From positions 1 through 27,912 of the IMG/VR virus record IMGVR_UViG_3300020171_000107: DNA of 27,912 nt. One strand, given 5' to 3'. Source of the DNA: a virus. The translations under genes and the position numbers were made by a program. Positions 2,094 to 23,486 of the stretch are shown here, in pieces. The notes beneath the pieces are model-generated. The model ran no database searches. It saw only the letters and a list, made by a program, of their open reading frames with translations, and had not been told where the DNA came from. Positions within the stretch are counted from its first letter, which is position 1; each line of letters opens with the position of its first letter.

Positions 2094-2702
2094 ATGAAGA
2101 AAATATGCGAGTTCTGCCATAACGAGTTTGACGCCGTGCGAAGAGAACGTAGGTTTTGTAACCATACTTGCGCCAATCGGTATGTCTGGTCTTTCCTGCG
2201 GGAGGAAAACCATCCTTGCTGGAAAGGAGGCCGTCTCGTTAGGGGACGATATTGGACGGTCAAGTGCGCGGGTCATCCCCGCGCCAACAGGTTGGGATAT
2301 GTTATTGAACACCTTCTTTTGATGGAACGGAAGATCGGCAGGTCCCTCCTGCCGGAGGAAAGGGTACATCATATCAACAAAGACTCCCTCGACAATCGCC
2401 TGGAGAACCTTGAGTTATGTCCTAATCATCGAGAACATAGTCAACACCACCTAGAGGGACGCGGCCCCCGCAAGCCGAGAACCTTAGAACATGCCGCCAA
2501 CATTTCTGTTGCCCTAAAACTGAAATATCGAACGCCGGAAGACAGAGCGATTATGTCCGAAAGAGCACGGAACGCTTGGCGAAATCCCTCTTTCCGAGAG
2601 ACTGTCACCTCAAAAATCCGGGCAAATTGGCAAGACCCGGAAATCCGTCAAAGATACCTTGAGGGATTTTCCCGACGAAAACATCGTTCACGGGAAGGTT
2701 GA
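2094..2702 (+). CDS. HNH homing-type endonuclease
   Basis: This 202-aa protein has an N-terminal Cys4 zinc knuckle (C5, C8, C22, C26) and a central HNH_3-type motif: HH at 92-93, DNR at 100-102, N105, then C109 and H112. It ends in a basic tail where W-x-(N/D)-P-x-x-R occurs twice (AWRNPSFR and NWQDPEIR), resembling the modular DNA-binding repeats of phage homing endonucleases. HNH enzymes cut DNA with a single metal ion. It is the only gene in the left 26 kb on the plus strand, it sits between two virion genes, it has its own promoter, and no Shine-Dalgarno precedes its ATG. This is the usual picture of a free-standing selfish endonuclease. The family call is firm; active homing is inference. 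Confidence 0.9.
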   Translation: MKKICEFCHNEFDAVRRERRFCNHTCANRYVWSFLREENHPCWKGGRLVRGRYWTVKCAGHPRANRLGYVIEHLLLMERKIGRSLLPEERVHHINKDSLDNRLENLELCPNHREHSQHHLEGRGPRKPRTLEHAANISVALKLKYRTPEDRAIMSERARNAWRNPSFRETVTSKIRANWQDPEIRQRYLEGFSRRKHRSREG

Positions 2703-7892: not shown

Positions 7893-8531
7893 TTACCGCC
7901 TCGCCCAATCAGGATGTACTATCGCCCGCGGGGTTGACGGCATATTCAACCTCTTGGCGCGTTCCACGTGCTGCCGATAATCAGCCTGGGCAAGCGCATA
8001 ATGCTTGTCCCAATTCGGTTCTTCGGGATGGGTTTCCAGGTAGAACATCCGTAGCCGGTCAACCACCGCCCATTCGTATTCCGGCAGTATGCTGAGAGTA
8101 GAGGTTCCTGTAGGAATCGAGGAGTTGTACCTGTACCCACTCGCCACCAGAGTCCCCCCTTCGCCGGCGGTGGGAATGGGATAGAGTCCGATTTGATTGA
8201 AGTTCTCTCCGATGTACCAGCTTGAGGGGGTTCCGTCGCGAGTCAACCACTGGGCATCGGCGCTGAGTTCTTCCATATTGGTTTTGGCCAACACCTGCCC
8301 GGCGTGTCTCACGTTTACCATCTGGAACATCGCGGTGGACAACGCATACAGTCTCGTACTAGCCGTAGTGGTGGTGCCTACCGTTCCGTACCAAAGTTTC
8401 GTCTCCACCATGAAGTCCCGGTAGGCCCGTTGTAGCCTCACCATGCCACTCGCTTGACCCCAGGACAATTTCGTGTTCTTGGCATCCTCAAACGGCTGAA
8501 GGGCCTGTTGCATTATTTCATTGCTGGTCAT
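7893..8531 (-). CDS. Adaptor-like tail protein, paralogue 3 of 3
   Basis: This 212-aa protein is the last of three consecutive related genes. Shared features are an N-terminal helical pair ending in YRDFMVETKLWYGTVGTTTT, then RLYALSTAMFQMV, then a W(Y)-x-GENFNQIGLYP strand and a G-Y-R segment, ending in a basic helix (YRQHVERAKRL). Small proteins of about 200 residues in this position are the head-to-tail adaptors of short-tailed phages (T7 gp11-like). This copy is the most diverged in the C-terminal third and lacks the PQFH box of the other two. Its ATG overlaps the previous gene by four bases. Confidence 0.65.
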   Translation of the reverse strand: MTSNEIMQQALQPFEDAKNTKLSWGQASGMVRLQRAYRDFMVETKLWYGTVGTTTTASTRLYALSTAMFQMVNVRHAGQVLAKTNMEELSADAQWLTRDGTPSSWYIGENFNQIGLYPIPTAGEGGTLVASGYRYNSSIPTGTSTLSILPEYEWAVVDRLRMFYLETHPEEPNWDKHYALAQADYRQHVERAKRLNMPSTPRAIVHPDWARR

Positions 8532-9178
8532 TTTCGGGTTCTCTCCGCCTGGGAATCAGGTACTCCCTTCAGGTTACTCGCCTCCTGAACGTACCGCTCA
8601 TACCGTTCCTGGGCAGACTTGGCGACCACGGAATCGGGGGGAGCTAACCGGGGGATCAAACCTTCCGCCAACGCGCCGTGGAATTGGGGCAGGAACACCG
8701 GAGTACCCCCCGCGGTAAGGTCAGTCGCGGTACGATATCCAAATACCGTCATGGTTCCCACATACGAAGCATTATTAGTCATGCCCATAATGCCGATCTG
8801 GTTTATTCCCTCGGCCAAACACCAGACATAAGGCTTCGCCGAACCAGCACTATTCATAAAACTTGACAGGTTATCAGACATAAACGATGACTCCTTTTGG
8901 GCACCCCGTCCCATTACCACCCATTTTTTGTTGGTAGTAACCCACTGTTTCATATGAACCTCTACCGGCTCAAACATATATGTCGGCAACTGGTAGGTGC
9001 GCACCCCGGTCTTACAGACGGTGTTAAAAGTCCCATAGTAGAGTCTGGTCCGCGTCAGGAAGTCCTTCTGAACCCAGTTTAGTTGGCTAAGAGCGTACCC
9101 CTCCTGGACGTATCCCGTCCGTTCTCCCCACCTCCCCATCCTATCGAAGGCAATATCCAGGATGTCTTGCGCTTTCAT
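8528..9178 (-). CDS. Adaptor-like tail protein, paralogue 2 of 3
   Basis: The 216-aa protein shares LNWVQKDFLTRTRLYYGTFN, RTYQLPTYMFEPV, an EGINQIGIMG strand and GYRTATDLTAGGTP-PQFH with its neighbours. It differs by an insertion of roughly 10-15 residues in the middle (ESSFMSDNLSSFMNSAGSA). Start and stop are tightly coupled: its ATG shares one base with the TAA of paralogue 1 (TAATG), and its end overlaps the next ATG. The role is inferred as head-tail adaptor or neck component; which of the three copies contacts the portal cannot be told. Confidence 0.65.
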   Translation of the reverse strand: MKAQDILDIAFDRMGRWGERTGYVQEGYALSQLNWVQKDFLTRTRLYYGTFNTVCKTGVRTYQLPTYMFEPVEVHMKQWVTTNKKWVVMGRGAQKESSFMSDNLSSFMNSAGSAKPYVWCLAEGINQIGIMGMTNNASYVGTMTVFGYRTATDLTAGGTPVFLPQFHGALAEGLIPRLAPPDSVVAKSAQERYERYVQEASNLKGVPDSQAERTRK

Positions 9179-9801
9179 TACTTGTCACGCTCCATAGTCA
9201 GCATTCGACCATGCTTCTGAAGCGCCAGTTCGACGTATTGGTTGTACCGTTTCTCCGCTCGCTCGTAGGCAATCTGGTTGCGAGCGTTGTCAGCATCTTC
9301 GCTTGCCATTCGCATGATAAGCCCTTCGATCAGAACCGGGTGGAACTGCGGCTCCCAAATCGGTGTATTTCCAGCAGTCAAGTCCGCGGCTGTTCGGTAC
9401 CCCTCGGCTACTACCGTGCCACCGCTGCCTGCCGCCACTCGGCGATAGATAGCGATCTTGTTGAAGTTTTCACCGGGATACCAGGCCATTACCGAGCCCT
9501 GACTGTTCTTCCAGGTCTTCGAGTGGCTATAAACGTCTAACTCTTCCTGGCTGGCCCTGCCCAGGAGTCTCCCCCTGAACCGGCATCGCACAGGCAGGAA
9601 CATAGAGGTTGCTAGCGCGCACAAACGGTCCCCAGCGGTTACGGTAGTACCCACCGTACCATAGTAGAGTTTGGTCTGTATCAGGAACTCCCGCTGTGTC
9701 TCATTGACCCAATTCACCAGCATGGCACTGGAGAAGTGAGACACCCCCGTACCCTCTCCAAACCTTCGTAGGGCGCTGTCTTGAACATCGCTAACTTTCA
9801 T
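9178..9801 (-). CDS. Adaptor-like tail protein, paralogue 1 of 3
   Basis: The 207-aa protein is first in transcription order of the three. It carries VNWVNETQREFLIQTKLYYG, RLCALATSMFLPV, WYPGENFNKIAIYRR, and GYRTAADLTAGNTP followed by PQFHPVLIEGL. Its C-terminal helix is basic and Glu-rich. The same blocks in the same order in the next two genes show tandem gene triplication. The position before a nozzle-like gene supports a gp11-like adaptor. The ATG at 9801 lies 17 nt after the stop of the zinc-ribbon gene. Confidence 0.7.
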   Translation of the reverse strand: MKVSDVQDSALRRFGEGTGVSHFSSAMLVNWVNETQREFLIQTKLYYGTVGTTVTAGDRLCALATSMFLPVRCRFRGRLLGRASQEELDVYSHSKTWKNSQGSVMAWYPGENFNKIAIYRRVAAGSGGTVVAEGYRTAADLTAGNTPIWEPQFHPVLIEGLIMRMASEDADNARNQIAYERAEKRYNQYVELALQKHGRMLTMERDK

Positions 9802-9817: not shown

Positions 9818-10027
9818 TTATAGTTCGGTGGCCCACAGGTGCGAGGGTGCATCGAAGCAGGCCCCGCAAACCGCCAGTCCGTCCTGCGGTATCAGGTCTC
9901 GTTTGTGGAACGTCCTACCGCACCTGTCACAATCCTTCAACTCGCCATAGAAGATGTCCGGGTTTTTCTCTTCGATTCCAGGGCTGGCAGGAAGCGGTAT
10001 TTCCATAGGGTATCTAGGGCTTGCCAT
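9818..10027 (-). CDS. Small zinc-ribbon protein
   Basis: The 69-aa protein has one zinc-ribbon: C33-x2-C36 and C54-x2-C57 with 17 residues between (KDCDRCGRTF and AVCGACFDA). The N-terminus is proline-rich and the rest has no known domain. The start chosen is ATG 10027, inside the last codons of the glycosyltransferase; an in-frame GTG at 10045 would add six residues, and neither start has a clear Shine-Dalgarno site. Function is unknown. It could bind nucleic acid or be a structural zinc protein. Confidence 0.65.
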   Translation of the reverse strand: MASPRYPMEIPLPASPGIEEKNPDIFYGELKDCDRCGRTFHKRDLIPQDGLAVCGACFDAPSHLWATEL

Positions 10028-10823
10028 TTTTTTTCGCCAATCCACACGTTAACTCAGGCCACCGCTCGTTATAGATGATCCGATTCTCGTTTACAATCGC
10101 CTCACGATCCAATCCATTCTCGGCGAATGTCCTTCCTCCGTGATGATGAATGAAGGTATCCGCACGAACCAGTAGTCTGTACCCGGCCTTTACCGCTCGG
10201 TTACAGAAGTCCGTATCCTCACAACCCCCAATCTTAAAACACTCGTCCATCATACCTATCTTATCGAACACCTCTCGCTTGATGAGTAGACACATTCCCG
10301 ATAATTGTATCGCACCTACCAGGCAACCCGAAAAAGCAGCCCCCCACAACCACGCGAAGGTCTCCAGACCTTGAACGTCCTGATAGGGTGGCGGGAAAAA
10401 TATCCCCTGCGGACGCACCTCTGGAGGACCAGACGTTGGCCCTACCATTCCCACATTAGGTTCGATGTAAAGCACGTCCAACATCCGATCCAACCACCCA
10501 GCCGTTACAACTGTGTCACTATTCAACAGCAGGATGTTGCGACCCGCCGCTGTTTTCACGCCCTGGTTGACGCCTGCTGCATAACCCCTGTTCGTCTCGT
10601 TGCGAATCAACTTGAGGTCCCGTTTCTCCAACCATTCAACCGTGCCATCAGTGGACCCGTTGTCCACCACAATCAACTCATAGTCTGGGTAGGTATGTTT
10701 CCTCACGCTTTCCAGACAATCTTTTGTGTAACGCAGACCGTTCCATGTCAACACCACTATAGAAGTAAGTCCAAACCCAGCCTTTTCTTCGTCGTTAGAA
10801 CCCTTTTCTATCCCTGTAATCAT
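10014..10823 (-). CDS. Family 2 glycosyltransferase
   Basis: This 269-aa protein has the GT-A fold signature of inverting GT2 enzymes. The nucleotide-binding part includes TSIVVLTWNG (20-29), VVDNGSTDGT (52-61) and NRGYAAGVNQG (78-88). The metal site is LLNSDT (99-104), a DXD-type motif with Ser. The acceptor side has GGCEDTDF (199-206), with the Glu-Asp pair expected for the catalytic base, followed by HHHGGRTF (226-233). This is close to the rhamnosyltransferase-like (WbbL) subgroup. There is no membrane anchor, so it should work in the cytoplasm on a sugar-nucleotide donor. It sits two genes after the three-module glycosyltransferase inside the virion operon, so the acceptor may be a virion protein rather than DNA or host surface sugar; that is inference. 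Confidence 0.93.
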   Translation of the reverse strand: MITGIEKGSNDEEKAGFGLTSIVVLTWNGLRYTKDCLESVRKHTYPDYELIVVDNGSTDGTVEWLEKRDLKLIRNETNRGYAAGVNQGVKTAAGRNILLLNSDTVVTAGWLDRMLDVLYIEPNVGMVGPTSGPPEVRPQGIFFPPPYQDVQGLETFAWLWGAAFSGCLVGAIQLSGMCLLIKREVFDKIGMMDECFKIGGCEDTDFCNRAVKAGYRLLVRADTFIHHHGGRTFAENGLDREAIVNENRIIYNERWPELTCGLAKKNGKP

Positions 10824-10901
10824 TTAAGGCACCTTCGTCGGACCAACGAGAGCAATCTGGGAGAGAGTCCAGATTCGTTTACCCTGCTTCTTCGGTGTCA
10901 T

Positions 10902-11282
10902 CTACTCTCGGTTTTCCAACCCGTACCCCAGGATAGACCAGCGACCACGAGAGGCCGCCCCCAGCGAAGAAACCGCCCGCATATACTGTGGAAATGGTCC
11001 CGCCAGTTGAGCGCACTTGGCTGTGGTCGCGCTAGCCTGCGGGTACGAGAACTTGTATGGCGCGGTAACACCCGCGGCAGGCATATCACGCCAGGTGCCC
11101 CCAGGAGACTTACCCTGGAACTTCACATCGAGGGTATGGGTGGTCCCCGTAATGGTAGTTATCTCCAGGAAAACCACCGCGCTTTTCAGGTCTCCCACCC
11201 ATACCGAAGTATGGTTAGTGGTCTGCGAAGCGGTGGCGATTGTGGAGAGTGACTTGAAATTGAGCGCACGAGTGTAATCCAT
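10902..11282 (-). CDS. Small beta-rich virion-type protein
   Basis: The 126-aa protein shows VWVGDLKSAVVFLEITTITG followed by TTHTLDVKFQGKSPGGTW. This strand pattern is common in small phage structural proteins with a jelly-roll or Ig-like sandwich. The rest is Thr/Ser/Ala-rich with few charges. The start is ATG 11282, six nt after AAAGGAG; an earlier TTG/GTG-type reading that would overlap the previous gene is rejected. The gene lies between two glycosyltransferase genes, and its many Thr and Ser residues make it a reasonable candidate substrate or decoration protein. No direct evidence supports that. Confidence 0.65.
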   Translation of the reverse strand: MDYTRALNFKSLSTIATASQTTNHTSVWVGDLKSAVVFLEITTITGTTHTLDVKFQGKSPGGTWRDMPAAGVTAPYKFSYPQASATTAKCAQLAGPFPQYMRAVSSLGAASRGRWSILGYGLENRE

Positions 11283-11293
11283 GTTCTGCTCCT

Positions 11294-11458
11294 TTAACCT
11301 TTCTCTTGATTTCCATAAGATTTTCTGATTTCGTTTCTTATCATCTCGCACATACCACACTTACAGCCAACGTGCGGTCCGGTGGGAGTACAGTAGGCCG
11401 GATGACCGAAGTATTTCTGATTCAAATCGTATGTACGTCCATACACTTCTACTATCAT
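11294..11458 (-). CDS. Cys-rich mini-protein, zinc-binding-like
   Basis: The 54-aa protein has a beta-like N-terminus (MIVEVYGRTYDL) and a cluster C23...C32-x-C34-x2-C37 with H29 nearby (HVGCKCGMC), enough to hold one metal ion. The start is ATG 11458, which forms an ATGA overlap with the stop of the large glycosyltransferase; GGTGGG precedes it. A longer frame upstream runs antisense-like through the glycosyltransferase end and is rejected. Function is unknown. Confidence 0.6.
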   Translation of the reverse strand: MIVEVYGRTYDLNQKYFGHPAYCTPTGPHVGCKCGMCEMIRNEIRKSYGNQEKG

Positions 11459-14322
11459 AGTCCCACCTGTACCAATAGTTTTTCCACCTGCTGATCGAGT
11501 CTGAGTCGGCTCCATATCCACCGTTCGGAACATCGAGACATCCCTTGCCAATCACCGGAGGCCAACAACTCCTTGATGACACCAGATAGGTTCTCTGCTT
11601 CTGCCTGCACCGGCCATATTCCGAACGGTTGGTCTTCTGTCAGGGGTTCCGTCACCACACAACACCCGCAACTCATACCCTCGGCTATCCGGGTCTCGTT
11701 ATTCAGCGCGTCCGTGTAGTGGATGTTGAGCGCGATCTTGCACTTATTCCAGAATTCCAGGGTCTTGCCCGGCTCGTATTCCCCGGTCAACACCTCGACG
11801 TTAATTCCTGCCTCCTTCAGTTTGTCAATCACTCCCTGGCGACGCTCGTTGATAATCCCCAGGAATCCCACGTCTATCGTTCTCTCCCGGTTCAAGTTGA
11901 AGTATCCGGCATGGGCACCACCCAGGTAGAGGGAGAAGTGTCCCTTATCCTGCCCATTCATCAGCACCTTCCCGGCCTCTTCGTGACTCGTCACCAACAC
12001 GTCAGCCCAGTCCACACCCGCCTTCGCCATTTCAATCTTCCGGTGGGAAATATCATCATCACCCATCACTTGTTCGGCATACCAGAAGACCTTCTTGCCG
12101 CCTGCTTCCGTCAACTTGGGGTCTTTAACAACCGCAGGATCACACAACAAAACCATGTCGGGTTTGTCGTCCGGGTTATTGACACAGCCTTGCCCAACCA
12201 CAGCCGCCCCCAGGTAATGTTCTATCCGGTGGGGAGCCATATCCCGCATCCCGACCCACACCACCGGCGGCTCCATAACCCTGTCAATCAGTCTACCCGG
12301 CACCGAAATATCCAATCTCTCCTCGGCCCATTCTCGCCAGTCTTGCGGTGTTCCCGCTCCCTTCTGAATCAGGGATACGGCCTCACCCACGGTGGAGAAT
12401 ATCTGGGCATGAGGGTAATACTCCTCGGAACTGATCCAACAATGGACTATCGGGCACAGACCCGCAGCCATCGCCTCAGCCATCGTGACTTCCAAACTCT
12501 CCTCTATCGAGGTGGACAGGAAGAATGACTTGTCGGCATACCAAGCGTTCAGGTCTTCCGGCCACGGCTCGAAGAAGACATTCTCGTGAAGGCCCAACTC
12601 ACCTACCATCTTCTCGCAATACAACGAGAGGCGAGAATCCTGCCAGGTGCCGGTGATATGCAACTCCATGTCTGGGTTCGTCTTGACCAGCTCGGCCATG
12701 ATCTGAAGGGCCATAGGCAGATTCTTCTTGGAGTTCAGGTAACAGGCCATCGCTATCTTATTGCCGGGTTTGGCGGGGGTAAGAGGTCCCGGAATTCCAG
12801 CTATATCAGGTGCTATCGAAAACCGAGAGGAATCTATCCCGGCATGGGCGATAAACCTATTGCACTGTTCGATAGCGGGAACCTGCCGGATCGCAAGTGA
12901 CTCCTGGTAGTGGGCTGTGAAGATCACCTCATCCACCTTGCTCCAGTCCACCTGCCGCAGCAGTCCGTCGTGTATCTCGTAACCGTGAATCCGTACCACA
13001 ATTCGCTTAGTCTTCGGCAACTTACTGGCCGCGATCAGTAACGGACCCGCCCACTCAAACCAGGCAACCTCGCACCATTCCAGGAGTTCGGGGATATCCT
13101 CCACGGCATCGCACATCTTCATCTCGTACCGACCATCCCAACGAGCGAACAACGGCTCCAGAAAGTCCTTCTGACCCCGGTCCACGAAGAAGGCGAGCCG
13201 GGTAAACCGAGGAGGCTTAATCCTGCCGGACATCTTCGCCAACCGCTTCACGGCATCTTCGGGGGCACCCGCCGCGATAGTCTTTTCCCGCCACTCCTTC
13301 GCCTCTTCCCAATCCCCCATATTGGCACACACCTGCGCCAGATTATAGAACGTGAGCCAACTGTAAATGTCTACGTCAAGAAAGAACGGTTCGTAGGGAT
13401 TGACCTTCATTCCGGCAGCAATCAGGAACCAGTGTTTCGCTTCGGGAAAGTTGTGCTTTATGACGGCCAACTGGCCGAGCAGGAAATAGCCCTCGGCCCT
13501 CTGGTAGTTGTCTATCAGTTCCGCCGAAAGTATCTGGCGGGCCCGATCTATCTGGTCCAACCGCACCAAACACTGGGAGGCATGAATCGCTGCCTGATAC
13601 CGCTCTAAGTCCCACTCGGCCACCTGGAAGTATTGATCGTAACACTTCATGGCCTCTTCCCAGTTGCCAGCATCTCGTTCTGTCCCGGCCAGGTAGAACA
13701 GACTCCTGTGGTCCTTCGGATTCTCTTCAATCTTCGGAATAAAGTACGACCTTGCCATCGCTACTCGCTGTACGTTACGCGCGCGACGGGCCTCCGTCGG
13801 CCTTGAATCCCGGTCATGGTAGAGAACGATAGACGGGCAGGGCGTTCGGCGATCCGATTCCACGTTGATGACGTTGTGCATCGGAAGGTCGAAGGTCCAA
13901 CCCTTCCGAAACAACCTCTCCACAAGGAACTGCTGTATCACCCGCCCTTCCTCTACCATCCGCATAATGGGAAGAAGAAGCTGATAATGACTAGGGCAAT
14001 CCTCGCAGACCTTCCGCAACGGCTCAACGCTCTCAGGAGCCAACTTCTCGTCTGCATCTATCGAAAGAATCCAGTCCCCTGTCGCCAATCCTATTGCGTG
14101 GTTTCTGGCCTTCGAGAAGTCGAATCCGCTGCCGTCACCCTTCGGGTCTTCCCATTGGAACTCATCGAAAACGTCCGCCAGGTTTTGAGCGAGTTCCTTG
14201 GTCCCATCCGTGGACCCGGTATCCACAATCACAATCTCATCTACCGCCGCGCGTATGCTCTCCACGCATCCCGGAAGTGTATTGAGTTCGTCCTTGACGA
14301 TGATACATACTGAAAGTTTCAC
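11455..14322 (-). CDS. Three-module glycosyltransferase (GT2 - TPR - GT4-like - CgeB-like)
   Basis: This 955-aa protein has at least three parts. Residues 1 to about 195 are a GT2 domain: LSVCIIVKDE, VDTGSTDGT (33-41), DFSKARNHA and a DXD-type SIDADE (87-92). Residues about 200-360 are TPR-like helical repeats (LFYLAGTERDAGNWEEAMKC, GYFLLGQLAV, LAQVCANMGDWEEAKEW). Residues about 370-680 resemble a GT-B enzyme of family 4, with VVRIHGYEIHDG and a C-terminal STSIEESLEVTMAEA (604-618), the donor-binding E-x7-E region. Residues about 687-955 resemble CgeB/DUF3880-type transferases (VFWYAEQ, VGFLGIINERR, NNETRIAEGMSCGCCVVTE). The chosen start is GTG 14322 behind AAGGAGG; a TTG 39 nt upstream is weaker. 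The size and fusion suggest that one polypeptide adds several sugars in turn. Confidence 0.88.
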   Translation of the reverse strand: MKLSVCIIVKDELNTLPGCVESIRAAVDEIVIVDTGSTDGTKELAQNLADVFDEFQWEDPKGDGSGFDFSKARNHAIGLATGDWILSIDADEKLAPESVEPLRKVCEDCPSHYQLLLPIMRMVEEGRVIQQFLVERLFRKGWTFDLPMHNVINVESDRRTPCPSIVLYHDRDSRPTEARRARNVQRVAMARSYFIPKIEENPKDHRSLFYLAGTERDAGNWEEAMKCYDQYFQVAEWDLERYQAAIHASQCLVRLDQIDRARQILSAELIDNYQRAEGYFLLGQLAVIKHNFPEAKHWFLIAAGMKVNPYEPFFLDVDIYSWLTFYNLAQVCANMGDWEEAKEWREKTIAAGAPEDAVKRLAKMSGRIKPPRFTRLAFFVDRGQKDFLEPLFARWDGRYEMKMCDAVEDIPELLEWCEVAWFEWAGPLLIAASKLPKTKRIVVRIHGYEIHDGLLRQVDWSKVDEVIFTAHYQESLAIRQVPAIEQCNRFIAHAGIDSSRFSIAPDIAGIPGPLTPAKPGNKIAMACYLNSKKNLPMALQIMAELVKTNPDMELHITGTWQDSRLSLYCEKMVGELGLHENVFFEPWPEDLNAWYADKSFFLSTSIEESLEVTMAEAMAAGLCPIVHCWISSEEYYPHAQIFSTVGEAVSLIQKGAGTPQDWREWAEERLDISVPGRLIDRVMEPPVVWVGMRDMAPHRIEHYLGAAVVGQGCVNNPDDKPDMVLLCDPAVVKDPKLTEAGGKKVFWYAEQVMGDDDISHRKIEMAKAGVDWADVLVTSHEEAGKVLMNGQDKGHFSLYLGGAHAGYFNLNRERTIDVGFLGIINERRQGVIDKLKEAGINVEVLTGEYEPGKTLEFWNKCKIALNIHYTDALNNETRIAEGMSCGCCVVTEPLTEDQPFGIWPVQAEAENLSGVIKELLASGDWQGMSRCSERWIWSRLRLDQQVEKLLVQVGL

Positions 14323-14366
14323 GGTCCCCCTGGCCTCCTTGTGGTGATCCTCCTGGCACAAAAGGT

Positions 14367-14399
14367 GGGGTCCGTGGGCAGGAGGAACCCACGGACCCC
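14367..14399 (-). terminator. Terminator-like hairpin after the repeat-fibre gene
   Basis: Perfect 12-bp arms (GGGGTCCGTGGG at 14367-14378 and its complement at 14388-14399) enclose a 9-nt loop. In the leftward direction the stem is followed by ACCTTTTG, a short T run. It sits between the capsid block and the glycosyltransferase block and could lower expression of the enzymes relative to the capsid proteins. Confidence 0.65.
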
Positions 14400-14452
14400 T
14401 GGCGGCAGGCGGCGGGCGAGGATGAAGGGGATGAACACCGCCTACCGATTCG

Positions 14453-15844
14453 TTAGTTGAGTACCATCCACGACACAGAGCCGGTTGCGCCCGTGGCGTT
14501 GCCCGTGAACAGCATCACCTTGAAGCTGGTCACAGGAACCCTGGCGGACACCTTCTCGAAGGCGTGGGCCTGTACTCCGGTGTTGGTATGGGAAGTCAGG
14601 AACAGAAGACTGCCCGTATGGATACGCGAGCAGGAGATCACCGCAGAATTGGTGATCGCTACTGCCTTCCCAAACACCGCTCCAGTACCACCAGTACCAG
14701 CGGCAACGTTGACGCCCTTGGCAAACCGGAAGGTCTTCCCGTTGCCAGTGACAGTCACGTTGTCTCTGGTAGTCAACGCGCCGGTAACGCCGAGAGCGCC
14801 AACAACACCCAGCCTGCTCCCGGCCATAGAGACAGTCCCATCTATTCGATGGGCCTTCCCTGCCCCTGTAACCACAACCGCACCTCCAACCTCAAACCTG
14901 GAGGTGCCGCGAAGGGTAACAGTCCCGTCTATGACGTGCGCTTTACCGGCTCCAGTGAGAGTGACGGAATCTCGGAAGGTGGCAAGACCCGTAACACCCA
15001 GTCTGGCACCCATCAGAGACACAGAACCGTCGAGTCTGTGAGACTTCCCGGCTCCCGTCAACATGACGTTTCCAGCCACGCTGAACTTGGAGGTCCCGCG
15101 TAGCGTTACGGTCCCGTCAACAACGTGCGCCTTACCCGCACCTGTAGCCGTTACGTTATCTCTAAACGTAGCGGGTCCGGTTACGCCAAGACGCGCGCCA
15201 TGCAGGGATACAGAACCGTCCAGACGGTGACTCTTGCCAGCTCCGGTGACAGTAACATTTCCACCGACAACGAACTTCGACGTACCACGAAGAGTCACAG
15301 TACCGTCTACGGTATGAGCCTTACCCGCGCCGGTAAGAGTGACATTACTGCGGGTAGTGAGGGCCCCGGTGATACCGACTGCACCCTCTATGCTCGCAGC
15401 ACCGGCGGCGTCAATCGCACCGGCTATCGTCACTTTACTTCCGGCCAGTGCAAGGGTTCCGTCAATGCGGTGAGCCTTACCCGCACCAGTCACTAGAAGC
15501 GCACCAGCGACACTCTGCTTCGTGGTGCCCCGCATGGTGACAGTTCCGTCAATGGTGTGTGACTTGCCCGCACCTGTCAGAGTGACATTACTGCGGGTAG
15601 TGAGGGCTCCGGTAATACCAACAGCACCCTCTATGCTCACAGCACCAGCAGCGTCAACTGCACCAGCTATAGTCAACTTGCTTCCGGCCAATGCGACAGT
15701 CCCATCAATCCGATGGGCTTTCTTGGCACCGGTGGCGATCACTGTACCCCGAAACACAGAGATACCAGTGACCCCCAAACCAGTGAGGGAGGCGGGAACG
15801 CCTCCCCCAATTATAGACAGTCCGTGGATAGGGGTTATAGCCAT
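14453..15844 (-). CDS. Ten-repeat fibrous protein, probable head fibre
   Basis: The 463-aa protein is built from ten copies of a TGAGKAHRIDGTV-like unit starting at about residues 38, 90, 119, 171, 200, 234, 263, 297, 326 and 366. Spacings alternate between 29 and 34 or 52 residues. Between them lie strands such as TLRGTSKFSVAGN and SLMGARLGVTG. The regular Gly/Thr/Val strands suggest a beta-solenoid or trimeric beta-prism shaft. The last 85 residues are non-repetitive (SRIHTGSLLFLTSH, FKVMLFTGNATG) and look like a small beta-rich tip. It directly follows the capsid gene (14 nt gap, AAAGGAG site) and precedes the glycosyltransferases. A head fibre, possibly glycosylated, is the best guess; a second tail fibre is the alternative. 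Confidence 0.75.
   Translation of the reverse strand: MAITPIHGLSIIGGGVPASLTGLGVTGISVFRGTVIATGAKKAHRIDGTVALAGSKLTIAGAVDAAGAVSIEGAVGITGALTTRSNVTLTGAGKSHTIDGTVTMRGTTKQSVAGALLVTGAGKAHRIDGTLALAGSKVTIAGAIDAAGAASIEGAVGITGALTTRSNVTLTGAGKAHTVDGTVTLRGTSKFVVGGNVTVTGAGKSHRLDGSVSLHGARLGVTGPATFRDNVTATGAGKAHVVDGTVTLRGTSKFSVAGNVMLTGAGKSHRLDGSVSLMGARLGVTGLATFRDSVTLTGAGKAHVIDGTVTLRGTSRFEVGGAVVVTGAGKAHRIDGTVSMAGSRLGVVGALGVTGALTTRDNVTVTGNGKTFRFAKGVNVAAGTGGTGAVFGKAVAITNSAVISCSRIHTGSLLFLTSHTNTGVQAHAFEKVSARVPVTSFKVMLFTGNATGATGSVSWMVLN
14735..15733 (-). repeat. In-gene tandem repeat array of the fibre-like gene
   Basis: The repeat is visible in DNA as well as protein. For example, a stretch of at least 28 identical bases starting at 15337 recurs at 15580, exactly 243 bp (81 codons) away, and the surrounding bases are also very similar. 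The supra-units are 81 codons (29+52) near the N-terminus and 63 codons (29+34) further on. Such near-identity invites recombination that changes fibre length in frame. Confidence 0.85.
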
Positions 15845-15858
15845 GACATTAAGCTCCT

Positions 15859-16752
15859 TTAACCCCCACTGGTCCCGTAAGCGCCTCTCCAGTCCGAATA
15901 TCCACAGGAGAACTCCATATTGACCTTATACTTAGCATCGCCTGTATCGAAGTCGTCACTGTTTGCAAACCGAGGACGCAACCTCCAGAAGAAGTTGAAC
16001 TCCCGGTCGTCATTCGGTGCCAACAGATACCAGGCATCCGCGTCAGTAAGATAGTCCCACACCACCGGAGCGATCCCGCGATTAGCGATCACGTTCTTGG
16101 TATTGGTCATCACCCACGGTTCGTTCGTGCTCTGAAGAATCTTCAGGGCTGTGAACTCGTCGGAAGGCGATACCAACAGGACCGTCGGCTTGACCGCGAT
16201 CCTGATGTTGTTGTCATCCCTCATGTTGCGGAACGCTGTAACGGCAGCCTCCAAAGAGGCGACCGATAGGTCCGCATCGGTTGTGGGATGATTGGCTGAA
16301 GTTCCCCCATGTTTGAGAGGATGCGCGGTGTTGAACAAACTCACCGCGTCAGGTCCAGTGTCAGCAAATCCATCATTATAAACCGCGGCCGCCACCGTTT
16401 CCACGGTGTGCCGGGTGGACTTGCCGAAAGCATTGGACATCCGGGACATAACCCGGTACTGGTCGTTGCGGTACATCTGCTCCGAGACCCGGAAACCCAG
16501 GCCGTAGATCAGATGGGTGTACCGCTTGGTATAAGCCTGAACCGGGTCTTCGTACTGGATAGCAGCCGATTCAGTCTTCTCTGGAATGACACCAAACCCA
16601 GTGATTCCCTGGTCATCCTCATACTTCCGAGTAGACGAAAGTACGTTGTAGACCCTGGAATACACTTCGGGCATGGAGTCGTATCGCTGAAAGAACACCT
16701 TCCTCAGCCCTGGTGCTAAGAGGGCTGAAAACGCACCTTGTACAGCAGCCAT
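15859..16752 (-). CDS. Major capsid protein (HK97 fold, Mu gpT-like)
   Basis: The 297-aa protein fits Mu gpT-like major head proteins. It has an N-terminal arm with FSALLAPGLRKVFFQRYDSMP, an E-loop-like stretch rich in charged residues (YEDDQGITGFGVIPEKTES), then the family-typical LFNTAHPLKHGGTSANHPTT and KPTVLLVSPSDEFTALKIL blocks. A closing beta section follows (WYLLAPNDDREFNFFWRLRP, ending SCGYSDWRG). HK97-fold subunits assemble into the icosahedral shell around the scaffold. No separate protease was found and the N-terminus is short, so cleavage of a delta domain is not expected. The ATG at 16752 follows AAGGAAGG. Neighbours (decoration-like protein, scaffold, portal) confirm the role. 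Confidence 0.87.
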   Translation of the reverse strand: MAAVQGAFSALLAPGLRKVFFQRYDSMPEVYSRVYNVLSSTRKYEDDQGITGFGVIPEKTESAAIQYEDPVQAYTKRYTHLIYGLGFRVSEQMYRNDQYRVMSRMSNAFGKSTRHTVETVAAAVYNDGFADTGPDAVSLFNTAHPLKHGGTSANHPTTDADLSVASLEAAVTAFRNMRDDNNIRIAVKPTVLLVSPSDEFTALKILQSTNEPWVMTNTKNVIANRGIAPVVWDYLTDADAWYLLAPNDDREFNFFWRLRPRFANSDDFDTGDAKYKVNMEFSCGYSDWRGAYGTSGG

Positions 16753-21378: not shown

Positions 21379-22278
21379 TCATACCCACGGTACTATTGCC
21401 TCCGAAGTCGAAACTTCTATTGGTTCACCCTTATACGTCGTCGGCTCCGCAGAAGAATATCTTCTGTCGTGAGTCAGTTCCATCACCCACGGTATCCTCG
21501 CCTTACCCATCGCCTGGTAAAGCAAACTGTAGACGCCAAGTTCACGCGCCAGATATACTGCATTAACCGGCAAACAAGACCCTCCCGCTTCGCCCGGCGT
21601 ATAAGGCGAATATCCGAAAGGTTTACTGGCGCACGCCTTCAGTACTTGGTTAAAATCCACTCCCAGTTTATCCGCCAACTCTTCCGCCTCATTCGCCCAG
21701 GCGATATTGACTACCCGCTGTGCGTTCTCGTAGAGTTTGGCAAATTCAGTGATCTTCGGGTCGTAGAACTCAAACACAGGTGCCTGCATGAAAGAACGGT
21801 AGAATTTCGCCGCCTTTCGTGCCGCTTCGCGACCTAATCCTCCCACCAACTTGGGTATGGACTCCAAGGGCCACTCTAGTTCGTGACCCGGCCAGAGACG
21901 TTCGGGAGAATGGGCAACGTGGAACCGTTTCGTGAGATGGTACTTCTCCACCATCGCGTCCGTGAATCCCACCGGGACGGATGATTCGATGATAAGAAGC
22001 ACCTTCCCGAACAGAAAACCACCCGGAAGAGAGGAAACTGCCTCTTCTACGGGTTCCGGCCCCTCCATCGGTGTATTGACACAGACCACATAAACGTCAG
22101 CCTTCTTGAACTGATCCCACGCCAATATAGGGGGAACCGGCACTTTCTTATGCCCACTTCTACACCAAAAACACTTCTCCGGGTCCTTGTCATAGACCAC
22201 TACAAAGTGATGCGCTTTACTTGCCGCCGCAGCCAACTGTTGCCCGATGTAACCGCCGCCCAGAATGGCTACCTTCAT
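21379..22278 (-). CDS. UDP-sugar 6-dehydrogenase-like protein, C-terminally short
   Basis: The 299-aa protein contains the first two domains of the UDP-glucose / UDP-ManNAc dehydrogenase family. The NAD-binding Rossmann loop is MKVAILGGGYIGQQL (G7, G9, G12). ESSVPVGFT (98-106) and HSPERLWPG (123-131) match family boxes. The central domain has KLYENAQRVVNIAWANE with K181 and N185, and the catalytic cysteine C235 lies in AGGSCLPVN. The family is usually about 400-440 aa and ends in a UDP-binding domain of roughly 100 residues, which is absent here. It may still act with an altered substrate, or bind rather than oxidise. The gene forms an ATGA overlap with the 55-aa gene before it and precedes portal. 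Confidence 0.82.
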   Translation of the reverse strand: MKVAILGGGYIGQQLAAAASKAHHFVVVYDKDPEKCFWCRSGHKKVPVPPILAWDQFKKADVYVVCVNTPMEGPEPVEEAVSSLPGGFLFGKVLLIIESSVPVGFTDAMVEKYHLTKRFHVAHSPERLWPGHELEWPLESIPKLVGGLGREAARKAAKFYRSFMQAPVFEFYDPKITEFAKLYENAQRVVNIAWANEAEELADKLGVDFNQVLKACASKPFGYSPYTPGEAGGSCLPVNAVYLARELGVYSLLYQAMGKARIPWVMELTHDRRYSSAEPTTYKGEPIEVSTSEAIVPWV

Positions 22279-22758: not shown

Positions 22759-22968
22759 TTACGGCATTTCACCGTAAAGACCAGTCCATCCCCACTTGTA
22801 TTTAGAAAACCACCGCATGAAATGATCGAGATCGCTCTCTCCCTCTCGACGCGGGGTGGCCGCTTCCACCCGATCCATGTAATCCATTTCCTCCACTGTC
22901 GGATACTTCATTCCCAACGAACCATCAATCTTGTCAACTAATCCCTCTGTGTCAACTAACTTTTTCAT
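22759..22968 (-). CDS. Small acidic protein of unknown function
   Basis: The 69-aa protein has no recognised motif. It has an acidic middle with MKYPTVEEMDYMDRVEAA and an aromatic C-terminus (HFMRWFSKYKWGWTGLYG). ATG 22968 makes an ATGA overlap with the methyltransferase stop, and GGAGG sits 6 nt upstream, so it is certainly placed to be translated with that enzyme. Confidence 0.6.
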   Translation of the reverse strand: MKKLVDTEGLVDKIDGSLGMKYPTVEEMDYMDRVEAATPRREGESDLDHFMRWFSKYKWGWTGLYGEMP

Positions 22969-23486
22969 GGTGTTCCTCCTGCAACCTCCTCAATCATCGG
23001 ACACCCCCCCCATGCCCCCAGCACGTACTCGCTCGCCCCAACCTGCAACCCCCCCGGACCCAACTCCGACTTGCGTTCCTCGAAATGAAATTCCCCTTTC
23101 CTCTCATAGAGTACCCACCACTTGTGCGTTGACCATCCCTCCGGGTCTTCCTGACTTGCCATCCAATCCCGCGTCATGGTAGGACACAGAATCATCCCCG
23201 CCTTCGCAACGCGTAATAGCTCGTTAACCGCCTTTATCGGGTCATCAACGTGCTCTATCACGTCTCGACAGAACACGAAGTCCAACGACTGATCCCTAAA
23301 CGGTAATGCTTGTACGTCCGCAATAATGAACACCCGCTCGTCGCGCACCAGGTCAACGTGATTTGGCCTGTGCTTGTTGTCGTCCGGGTACAGGTCAACC
23401 AGGATGTTCGCCAACGGGAACGGATCAGACCCCGAACCTATATCGGCCACCCACGGACGCGGAAGTGACTCAATATCCTGTCGCAC
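22965..23486 (-). CDS. SAM-dependent methyltransferase (class I, Methyltransf_11-like)
   Basis: The 173-aa protein has motif I VADIGSGSDPFPLANILVDL (13-32), motif II/III IADVQALPF (55-63) and motif IV LDFVFCRDVIEHVDDP (68-83), followed by KAVNELLRVAKAGMILCPT. These are the standard parts of a small Rossmann methyltransferase. No DNA-type NPPY or PC motif is present, so a sugar, small-molecule or protein acceptor is more likely than DNA. The enzyme is near the short end of the family and its C-terminal cap is brief. The start is GTG 23486 behind GGAGG. Its start region duplicates that of the preceding gene (see the repeat at 23470-23501). Confidence 0.85.
   Translation of the reverse strand: MRQDIESLPRPWVADIGSGSDPFPLANILVDLYPDDNKHRPNHVDLVRDERVFIIADVQALPFRDQSLDFVFCRDVIEHVDDPIKAVNELLRVAKAGMILCPTMTRDWMASQEDPEGWSTHKWWVLYERKGEFHFEERKSELGPGGLQVGASEYVLGAWGGCPMIEEVAGGTP

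Follow-up and report, generated by a model that had tools for sequence, protein, structure and literature searches.

We propose, with somewhat more confidence than doubt, that a group of sugar-modifying genes in the viral record IMGVR_UViG_3300020171_000107 of IMG/VR forms a late, cytosolic virion-glycosylation module that acts on the phage particle itself. The window analysed here is the entire record, a linear fragment of 27,912 bases with all its main genes on the minus strand. Transcription starts with a putative small terminase, the large terminase, a methyltransferase, a short nucleotide-sugar dehydrogenase-like gene and the portal, followed by a scaffold-like gene, two small head genes, the capsid, a repeat protein, a hairpin and a 968-codon transferase. 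Past the transferase come open reading frames (ORFs) of 85 and 126 amino acids, a separate glycosyltransferase of family GT2, a 75-amino-acid cysteine-rich gene and three SU10-adaptor-like paralogues, and the order closes with an 801-amino-acid virion protein and the tail-end genes. Judging from strand and spacing, the genes from the methyltransferase to the GT2 would be one operon. The gene list and coordinates of the block given in the original prediction hold in the ORF calls and Pfam searches, all on the minus strand, and the interleaving of sugar enzymes with structural genes that it described is found both here and, with differing enzyme sets, in many relatives. Gene order and the positional enrichment reported below thus place phage glycosyltransferases together with virion genes, as expected of virion glycosylation. 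The features at the centre of this proposal are the following.

15859..16752, minus strand: major capsid protein of the Mu gpT / Phage_capsid_4 type (PF25209, E = 9e-20; PF10124, 3e-12).
14453..15844, minus strand: beta-repeat protein of 463 amino acids, rich in Gly, Thr, Ala and Val, with a 63-residue period.
14367..14399, minus strand: GC-rich hairpin with a 13-bp stem, between the virion genes and the transferase (fold calculation).
11455..14361, minus strand: multi-module glycosyltransferase, an ORF of 968 codons (Pfam GT2, TPR, GT4 and PF13524; GmaR and SunS in the PDB).
14005..14313, minus strand: its GT2 (GT-A) module, residues 17-119 of the 968-residue ORF (GT2, 8e-19; VDTGSTDG and DAD motifs).
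13273..13725, minus strand: its TPR module, residues ~213-363, a candidate acceptor-binding scaffold (Pfam; parallels in GmaR and FlmG).
12442..12768, minus strand: its GT4 (GT-B) module, residues 532-640, close to an E-x7-E motif (Pfam GT4, 3e-13).
11638..11829, minus strand: its C-terminal CgeB-like GT-B module, residues 845-908 (PF13524, 7e-11).

The transferase more probably begins at a GTG (14322), which gives a protein of 955 amino acids. Pfam recovers the three modules for which it had been named, all of them catalytic (GT2, GT4 and CgeB-like), plus the TPR. In a phmmer search of the PDB, the closest solved structures to its GT2 domain are GmaR (1.6e-23) and SunS (2.8e-7), and a GT2 fused to a TPR and related in sequence to these proteins is an architecture of the GmaR/SunS type. 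GmaR moves N-acetylglucosamine onto flagellin, which its TPR has been proposed to recognise (PMC9638930), and in Caulobacter FlmG the TPR part binds the flagellin acceptor (PMC7591256). By analogy, the GmaR match and the roles of these two TPRs make a protein the best prior for the acceptor of the window transferase. The likeness to the Listeria flagellin O-N-acetylglucosamine transferase GmaR, the strongest solved-structure match, extends to the order of an N-terminal GT2 followed by a TPR, but GmaR carries an antirepressor domain in place of the two GT-B modules, and its acceptor is flagellin. The SPbeta S-glycosyltransferase SunS is likewise a prophage GT2 of the same type. SunS has a single catalytic module, against three in the window transferase, and acts on a bacteriocin peptide.

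The same kinship would also suit an enzyme that glycosylates a protein off the particle, such as a host flagellin or adhesin or, in the manner of SunS, a small peptide that is secreted. GmaR acts on flagellin and SunS on a peptide, and two small ORFs adjoin the window transferase.

11294..11551, minus strand: ORF of 85 amino acids with a Cys cluster (no family above cut-off).
10902..11282, minus strand: protein of 126 amino acids, with its ATG at 11282 behind AAGGAG (weak phrog_5707 match, 3e-4).

These ORFs, however, have no conserved counterparts; relatives keep their glycosyltransferase genes beside capsid and fibre, and in one of them (L260) structural genes stand on both sides of a solitary GT2-TPR-GT4 gene. 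We therefore consider an off-particle acceptor improbable. The 126-amino-acid protein, proposed earlier as a candidate substrate, has no significant relatives, including among 422 proteins from the same slot, and the phrog_5707 profile was silent in all scanned records, controls included. Its predicted structure (predicted local distance difference test, pLDDT, 37) is unusable, and we dropped it as a special substrate, without traceable relatives.

The most likely acceptor for a virion-glycosylating enzyme is the repeat protein, and the capsid protein comes next. We regard the repeat protein as a probable capsid-attached fibre or decoration protein. Its 63-residue period (29+34) is accompanied by two 18-residue insertions, and it consists of 17% Gly, 14% Thr, 13% Ala, 12% Val and 7% Ser, so that of the earlier description as a Thr/Ser/Gly-rich repeat protein the repeat stands and the serine richness does not; Gly/Thr/Ala/Val-rich is the better label. 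Its N-terminus, MAITPIHGLSIIGGG, resembles the post-capsid proteins of glycosyltransferase-bearing relatives, five of which (L096, L183, L186, L187 and L223) start M-x-x-T-H-[FH]-x-G-[LI]-[SC]. In all five, a glycosyltransferase follows directly after the motif-bearing protein, whose Ser+Thr and Gly contents (20-25% and 12-17%) bracket those of the repeat protein (21% and 17%). These five are the distinct relatives whose N-terminal motif comes closest to that of the window fibre; full-length relatives of the repeat protein were not detected, and it matched nothing in either the phage collection or the PDB. Its predicted structure is all-beta at low confidence (pLDDT 50), and a Foldseek search with this model returned nothing below 1e-3; neither the model nor that outcome carries weight in our reading.

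The association of sugar enzymes with the post-capsid site is real. PF00535 was scanned for independently of position in 150 records with related capsids or portals, comprising a first 100 and a closer 50. Nine of the first 100 combine the window's capsid type with a PF00535 match inside the examined stretch, and in every one of these nine the match lies no more than 5 kb downstream of the capsid gene (p ~1e-5 if independent, and the records are not fully independent). This zone makes up 28% of the examined sequence. One further record (G047) has PF00535 matches at least 9 kb downstream. In the closer 50, the match falls in the zone in nine of 11 records and between portal and capsid in the remaining two (coordinates converted). 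In a scan of 50 records, PF08241 occurs in two, both times just after the capsid. The profile phrog_1574 has 13 matches spread over 12 records, and 10 of the 13 fall within the post-capsid zone. Homology seeds locate glycosyltransferase, methyltransferase, radical-SAM or GT9-like genes there in 15 of the 42 close relatives for which 3 kb or more of downstream sequence is available. That tally of gene positions comes from hand-chosen seeds biased towards downstream genes, and so the positional claim rests on the Pfam and PHROG scans. The family phrog_1574, of unknown function in PHROGs, overlaps GT-A-like glycosyltransferase families.

phrog_1574 in phages with a Mu-gpT capsid, 0.3-2.5 kb past the capsid gene: L019, L059, L068, L080, L081, L088, L147 and L148.

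Relatives show how varied these post-capsid enzyme sets can be. Viral contigs gave no matches when scanned with the capsid, the repeat protein or the 968-residue protein as single sequences, so alignments were needed; scans based on these yielded 80 capsid, 80 portal and 80 close-capsid loci. Capsid relatives among contigs scanned in this way are 39-49% identical to the window's, and those in annotated phages reach up to 39% identity, mostly without glycosyltransferases near the capsid. For example, the capsid of L096 (44% identical) is followed by a 173-amino-acid fibre-like protein, a glycosyltransferase-like protein, a radical SAM protein, a methyltransferase (34% identical to the window's) and a GT2-like protein, and the block continues with another radical SAM protein, an epimerase, a full-length nucleotide-sugar dehydrogenase-like protein and a GT4-like protein. 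L183 and L186 have a fibre-like gene, a glycosyltransferase and two GT4s after the capsid, and a methyltransferase directly upstream of the portal, while L182, L194 and L195 have in common a triad of GT2, methyltransferase and GT9-like genes. Fusions of the GT2-TPR-GT4 kind lie near the capsid in six other phages (L007, L133/L177 and L259-L262); in L259, L261 and L262 the gene is downstream of the capsid. The first of these, the complete genome of Manatee Spring podovirus (MW202718), was found through the portal search and encodes an SU10-type capsid, then a 166-amino-acid gene, a 762-amino-acid GT2-TPR-GT4 protein and two genes annotated as glycosyltransferases; further on, two methyltransferases flank another annotated transferase. 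MW202718 and the IMG/VR contigs L133 and L259-L262 therefore resemble the window in having a homologous portal and a GT2-TPR-GT4 protein near the capsid, some with further glycosyltransferases and methyltransferases, but their capsids are of the SU10 type, unlike the Mu-gpT type here. No CgeB-like third module was seen in the fusions of L007 or L177.

B12-binding radical-SAM-like proteins recur in post-capsid sugar blocks (L096, L121, L214 and L223), and may perhaps serve the C-methylation of sugars or proteins.

L096 11908-13146 and 15274-16551, L121 8085-9332: radical-SAM-like proteins, Pfam-confirmed.
L214 6884-8125, L223 6191-7456: radical-SAM-like proteins, identified by homology.

The remaining sugar enzymes of the window lie downstream of the transferase and upstream of the portal.

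10014..10823, minus strand: second GT2, 269 amino acids, a polymer-type (chondroitin-synthase-like) GT-A (PF00535, 2e-26; PDB 2z86, 3e-14).
22965..23486, minus strand: S-adenosylmethionine (SAM) methyltransferase, 173 amino acids, a candidate sugar O-methyltransferase (PF08241, E = 6e-12).
21379..22278, minus strand: truncated nucleotide-sugar dehydrogenase-like protein, 299 amino acids (partial PF03721, plus PF00984; 4r16 the best solved relative).

Both GT2s of the window belong to PF00535 (8e-19 and 2e-26) with motifs present, those of the second being VDNGSTDG, NSDT, ED and HHGG, and the likeness of the latter to polymerising enzymes such as chondroitin synthase fits chain extension. The methyltransferase reported upstream in the block is confirmed by its PF08241 match (6e-12); homologues are located directly upstream of the portal in L183, L185 and L186, and after the capsid in L096, L182 and L223. 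The shortened UDP-sugar dehydrogenase of the original prediction survives as a gene and not as a working enzyme. The gene is truly short, since the portal begins 8 bp later. It retains GGSC and EFAKLYEN motifs, but Pfam finds no C-terminal NDP-binding domain (PF03720) and a partial N-terminal match, so that the three domains of a UDP-glucose/GDP-mannose dehydrogenase are not all there. Given this, a gap in the Rossmann part and PVN in place of PKD, we do not take it for a functional UDP-sugar dehydrogenase, and it is probably not a normal one. A 241-amino-acid protein of L184, considered as a second short dehydrogenase, was unsupported by Pfam, PDB and BLAST.

A second GT2 resembling polysaccharide synthases is also what might be expected if these enzymes changed a glycan on the host surface, whether during lysogeny or at a late stage of infection, leading to superinfection exclusion or receptor change in the style of serotype conversion. 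This is a common role of phage glycosyltransferases (PMC12619734), and the sets of glycosyltransferases, methyltransferases and hexapeptide transferases in relatives fit surface polysaccharide too. We nevertheless consider it an unlikely explanation, if one to be taken seriously. No window protein is membrane-like (maximum 19-residue hydropathy 1.86), and neither a GtrA flippase nor a membrane glycosyltransferase of gtr-type serotype conversion was identified. GtrA (PF04138) was likewise not found in 19 glycosyltransferase-bearing relatives, although seven control genomes were positive. Further, the block sits in late head-tail genes rather than in a lysogeny or early cluster, and the lead GT2 is nearest to protein glycosyltransferases.

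That protein-glycosyltransferase type, and the location of the genes inside a late structural block, also argue against the glycosylation of phage DNA, in which hypermodified bases would protect against restriction. DNA glycosylation by phage glycosyltransferases is established in general (cited in PMC12619734) and for T4 (PMC13216743), and partner enzymes could lie outside the window, which has no replication region. PF00303, the thymidylate-synthase/hydroxymethylase family, was not found in the 19 glycosyltransferase-bearing relatives, including the complete MW202718, the window itself being a fragment; search controls were positive in nine genomes. A Tet_JBP profile search matched no control genome and so carries no information on this point. 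We judge DNA to be a very unlikely target.

If the particle is the target, structural genes and sugar enzymes would both be expressed late in infection, the enzymes from behind a hairpin that may reduce their expression. The 101 nucleotides around this hairpin fold at -51.9 kcal/mol (z = -6.75). It is terminator-like, as previously described, yet not a canonical terminator, because only four T follow the stem. Two neighbouring stable hairpins occupy window 14355-14455 on the minus strand, between repeat protein and transferase (z -6.75); they might provide dosage control after abundant virion genes, like the terminators that follow phage capsid genes. As GmaR, SunS and FlmG suggest, the first sugar would be added by the GT2 module of the large transferase while its TPR holds the acceptor. 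That acceptor would be a virion protein rich in Ser/Thr, and the repeat fibre next to the capsid is the most likely one. The chain would then be lengthened by the GT4 and CgeB-like modules together with the second, separate GT2, which the methyltransferase may cap, and the decorated fibre or capsid would be built into particles. Sugar donors would be host nucleotide sugars, with the truncated dehydrogenase probably not working normally. What remains of the virion-glycosylation system first envisaged is supported by gene context and GmaR/SunS kinship; the 126-amino-acid substrate and a working dehydrogenase are no longer part of it.

Several points weigh against virion glycosylation. Of the 42 close relatives, 27 carry no such sugar-enzyme genes after the capsid. 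This goes part of the way towards what would undermine the proposal, a fibre kept without transferases, in that these 27 keep capsid and post-capsid proteins. Kinship among the fibres is suggestive only, as it comes from a short N-terminal motif on which 22 of 4096 ORFs score equal to the window repeat protein, and similarity between the C-terminus of that protein and relatives' fibres is not significant. The PDB comparison of the GT2 domain is limited to solved structures, closeness to structural genes is no proof of a structural substrate, and glycan and acceptor are deduced here from genes alone, in a record that is a fragment. With the enzymes missing from most relatives, the block counts as accessory, and we read it as a cassette open to exchange. 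Such patchiness, and the very different enzyme sets, might even suggest morons without a selected particle function that gather in a tolerated post-capsid insertion site. This we find highly improbable, as one functional class (glycosyltransferases, methyltransferases, radical SAM proteins, GT9 and epimerases) is repeatedly enriched at the site, with catalytic motifs intact.

Virion glycosylation itself is already known. Phage-encoded glycosyltransferases modify the capsid and tail-tube proteins of mycobacteriophages Che8, Corndog and Myrna (Freeman et al. 2023, as cited in PMC12363180). Like the window, the Che8 system (gp108-gp110) combines phage-encoded glycosyltransferases with a SAM methyltransferase domain: gp108 is a GT2-methyltransferase fusion, accompanied by a GT2 and by gp110, a GT25 (PF01755), near the right end of the genome. 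Enzyme set and location differ in the window, where a GT2-TPR-GT4-CgeB protein lies inside the structural block, PF01755 was not found among the ten block proteins scanned, and the modification is read from gene content. A literature search of partial coverage found no description of glycosyltransferase genes downstream of a capsid gene.

Elsewhere in the window, an HNH_3 endonuclease ORF (2094-2702, plus strand), which runs opposite to the tail-end genes on either side, is probably a selfish insertion. The three tandem adaptor-like paralogues (7893-9801, minus strand; phmmer 1e-31 to 5e-11) are an unusual triplication, and one of them matches PF24175 SU10_adaptor. A search for prophages and hosts returned two contigs of metagenome-assembled genomes only, labelled Nanoarchaeota and Acidobacteriota. 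The former, L257 (JAHIVR010000218.1), seems almost identical to viral contig L098, and its capsid shares 47% identity with that of the window.

We speculate, tentatively and at longer odds than for the module itself, that the slot from capsid to tail adaptor is a dedicated, exchangeable particle-glycan locus shared widely among uncultured phages. Here, a single cytosolic GT2-TPR-GT4-CgeB polypeptide would start and extend an oligosaccharide on the repeat fibre, which its N-terminus would anchor to the head, with glycan load varying between phages. Virion glycosylation has been established experimentally in few phages, mainly mycobacteriophages. If our proposal is true, a recurrent capsid-linked locus with differing enzyme sets in uncultured phages would point to the sugar-coating of particles as a common and fast-changing phage trait. 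Genes for glycosyltransferases, methyltransferases and radical-SAM proteins immediately behind the capsid gene would then be a genomic marker, helping to find such phages and to explain differences in particle stability, adsorption and recognition.

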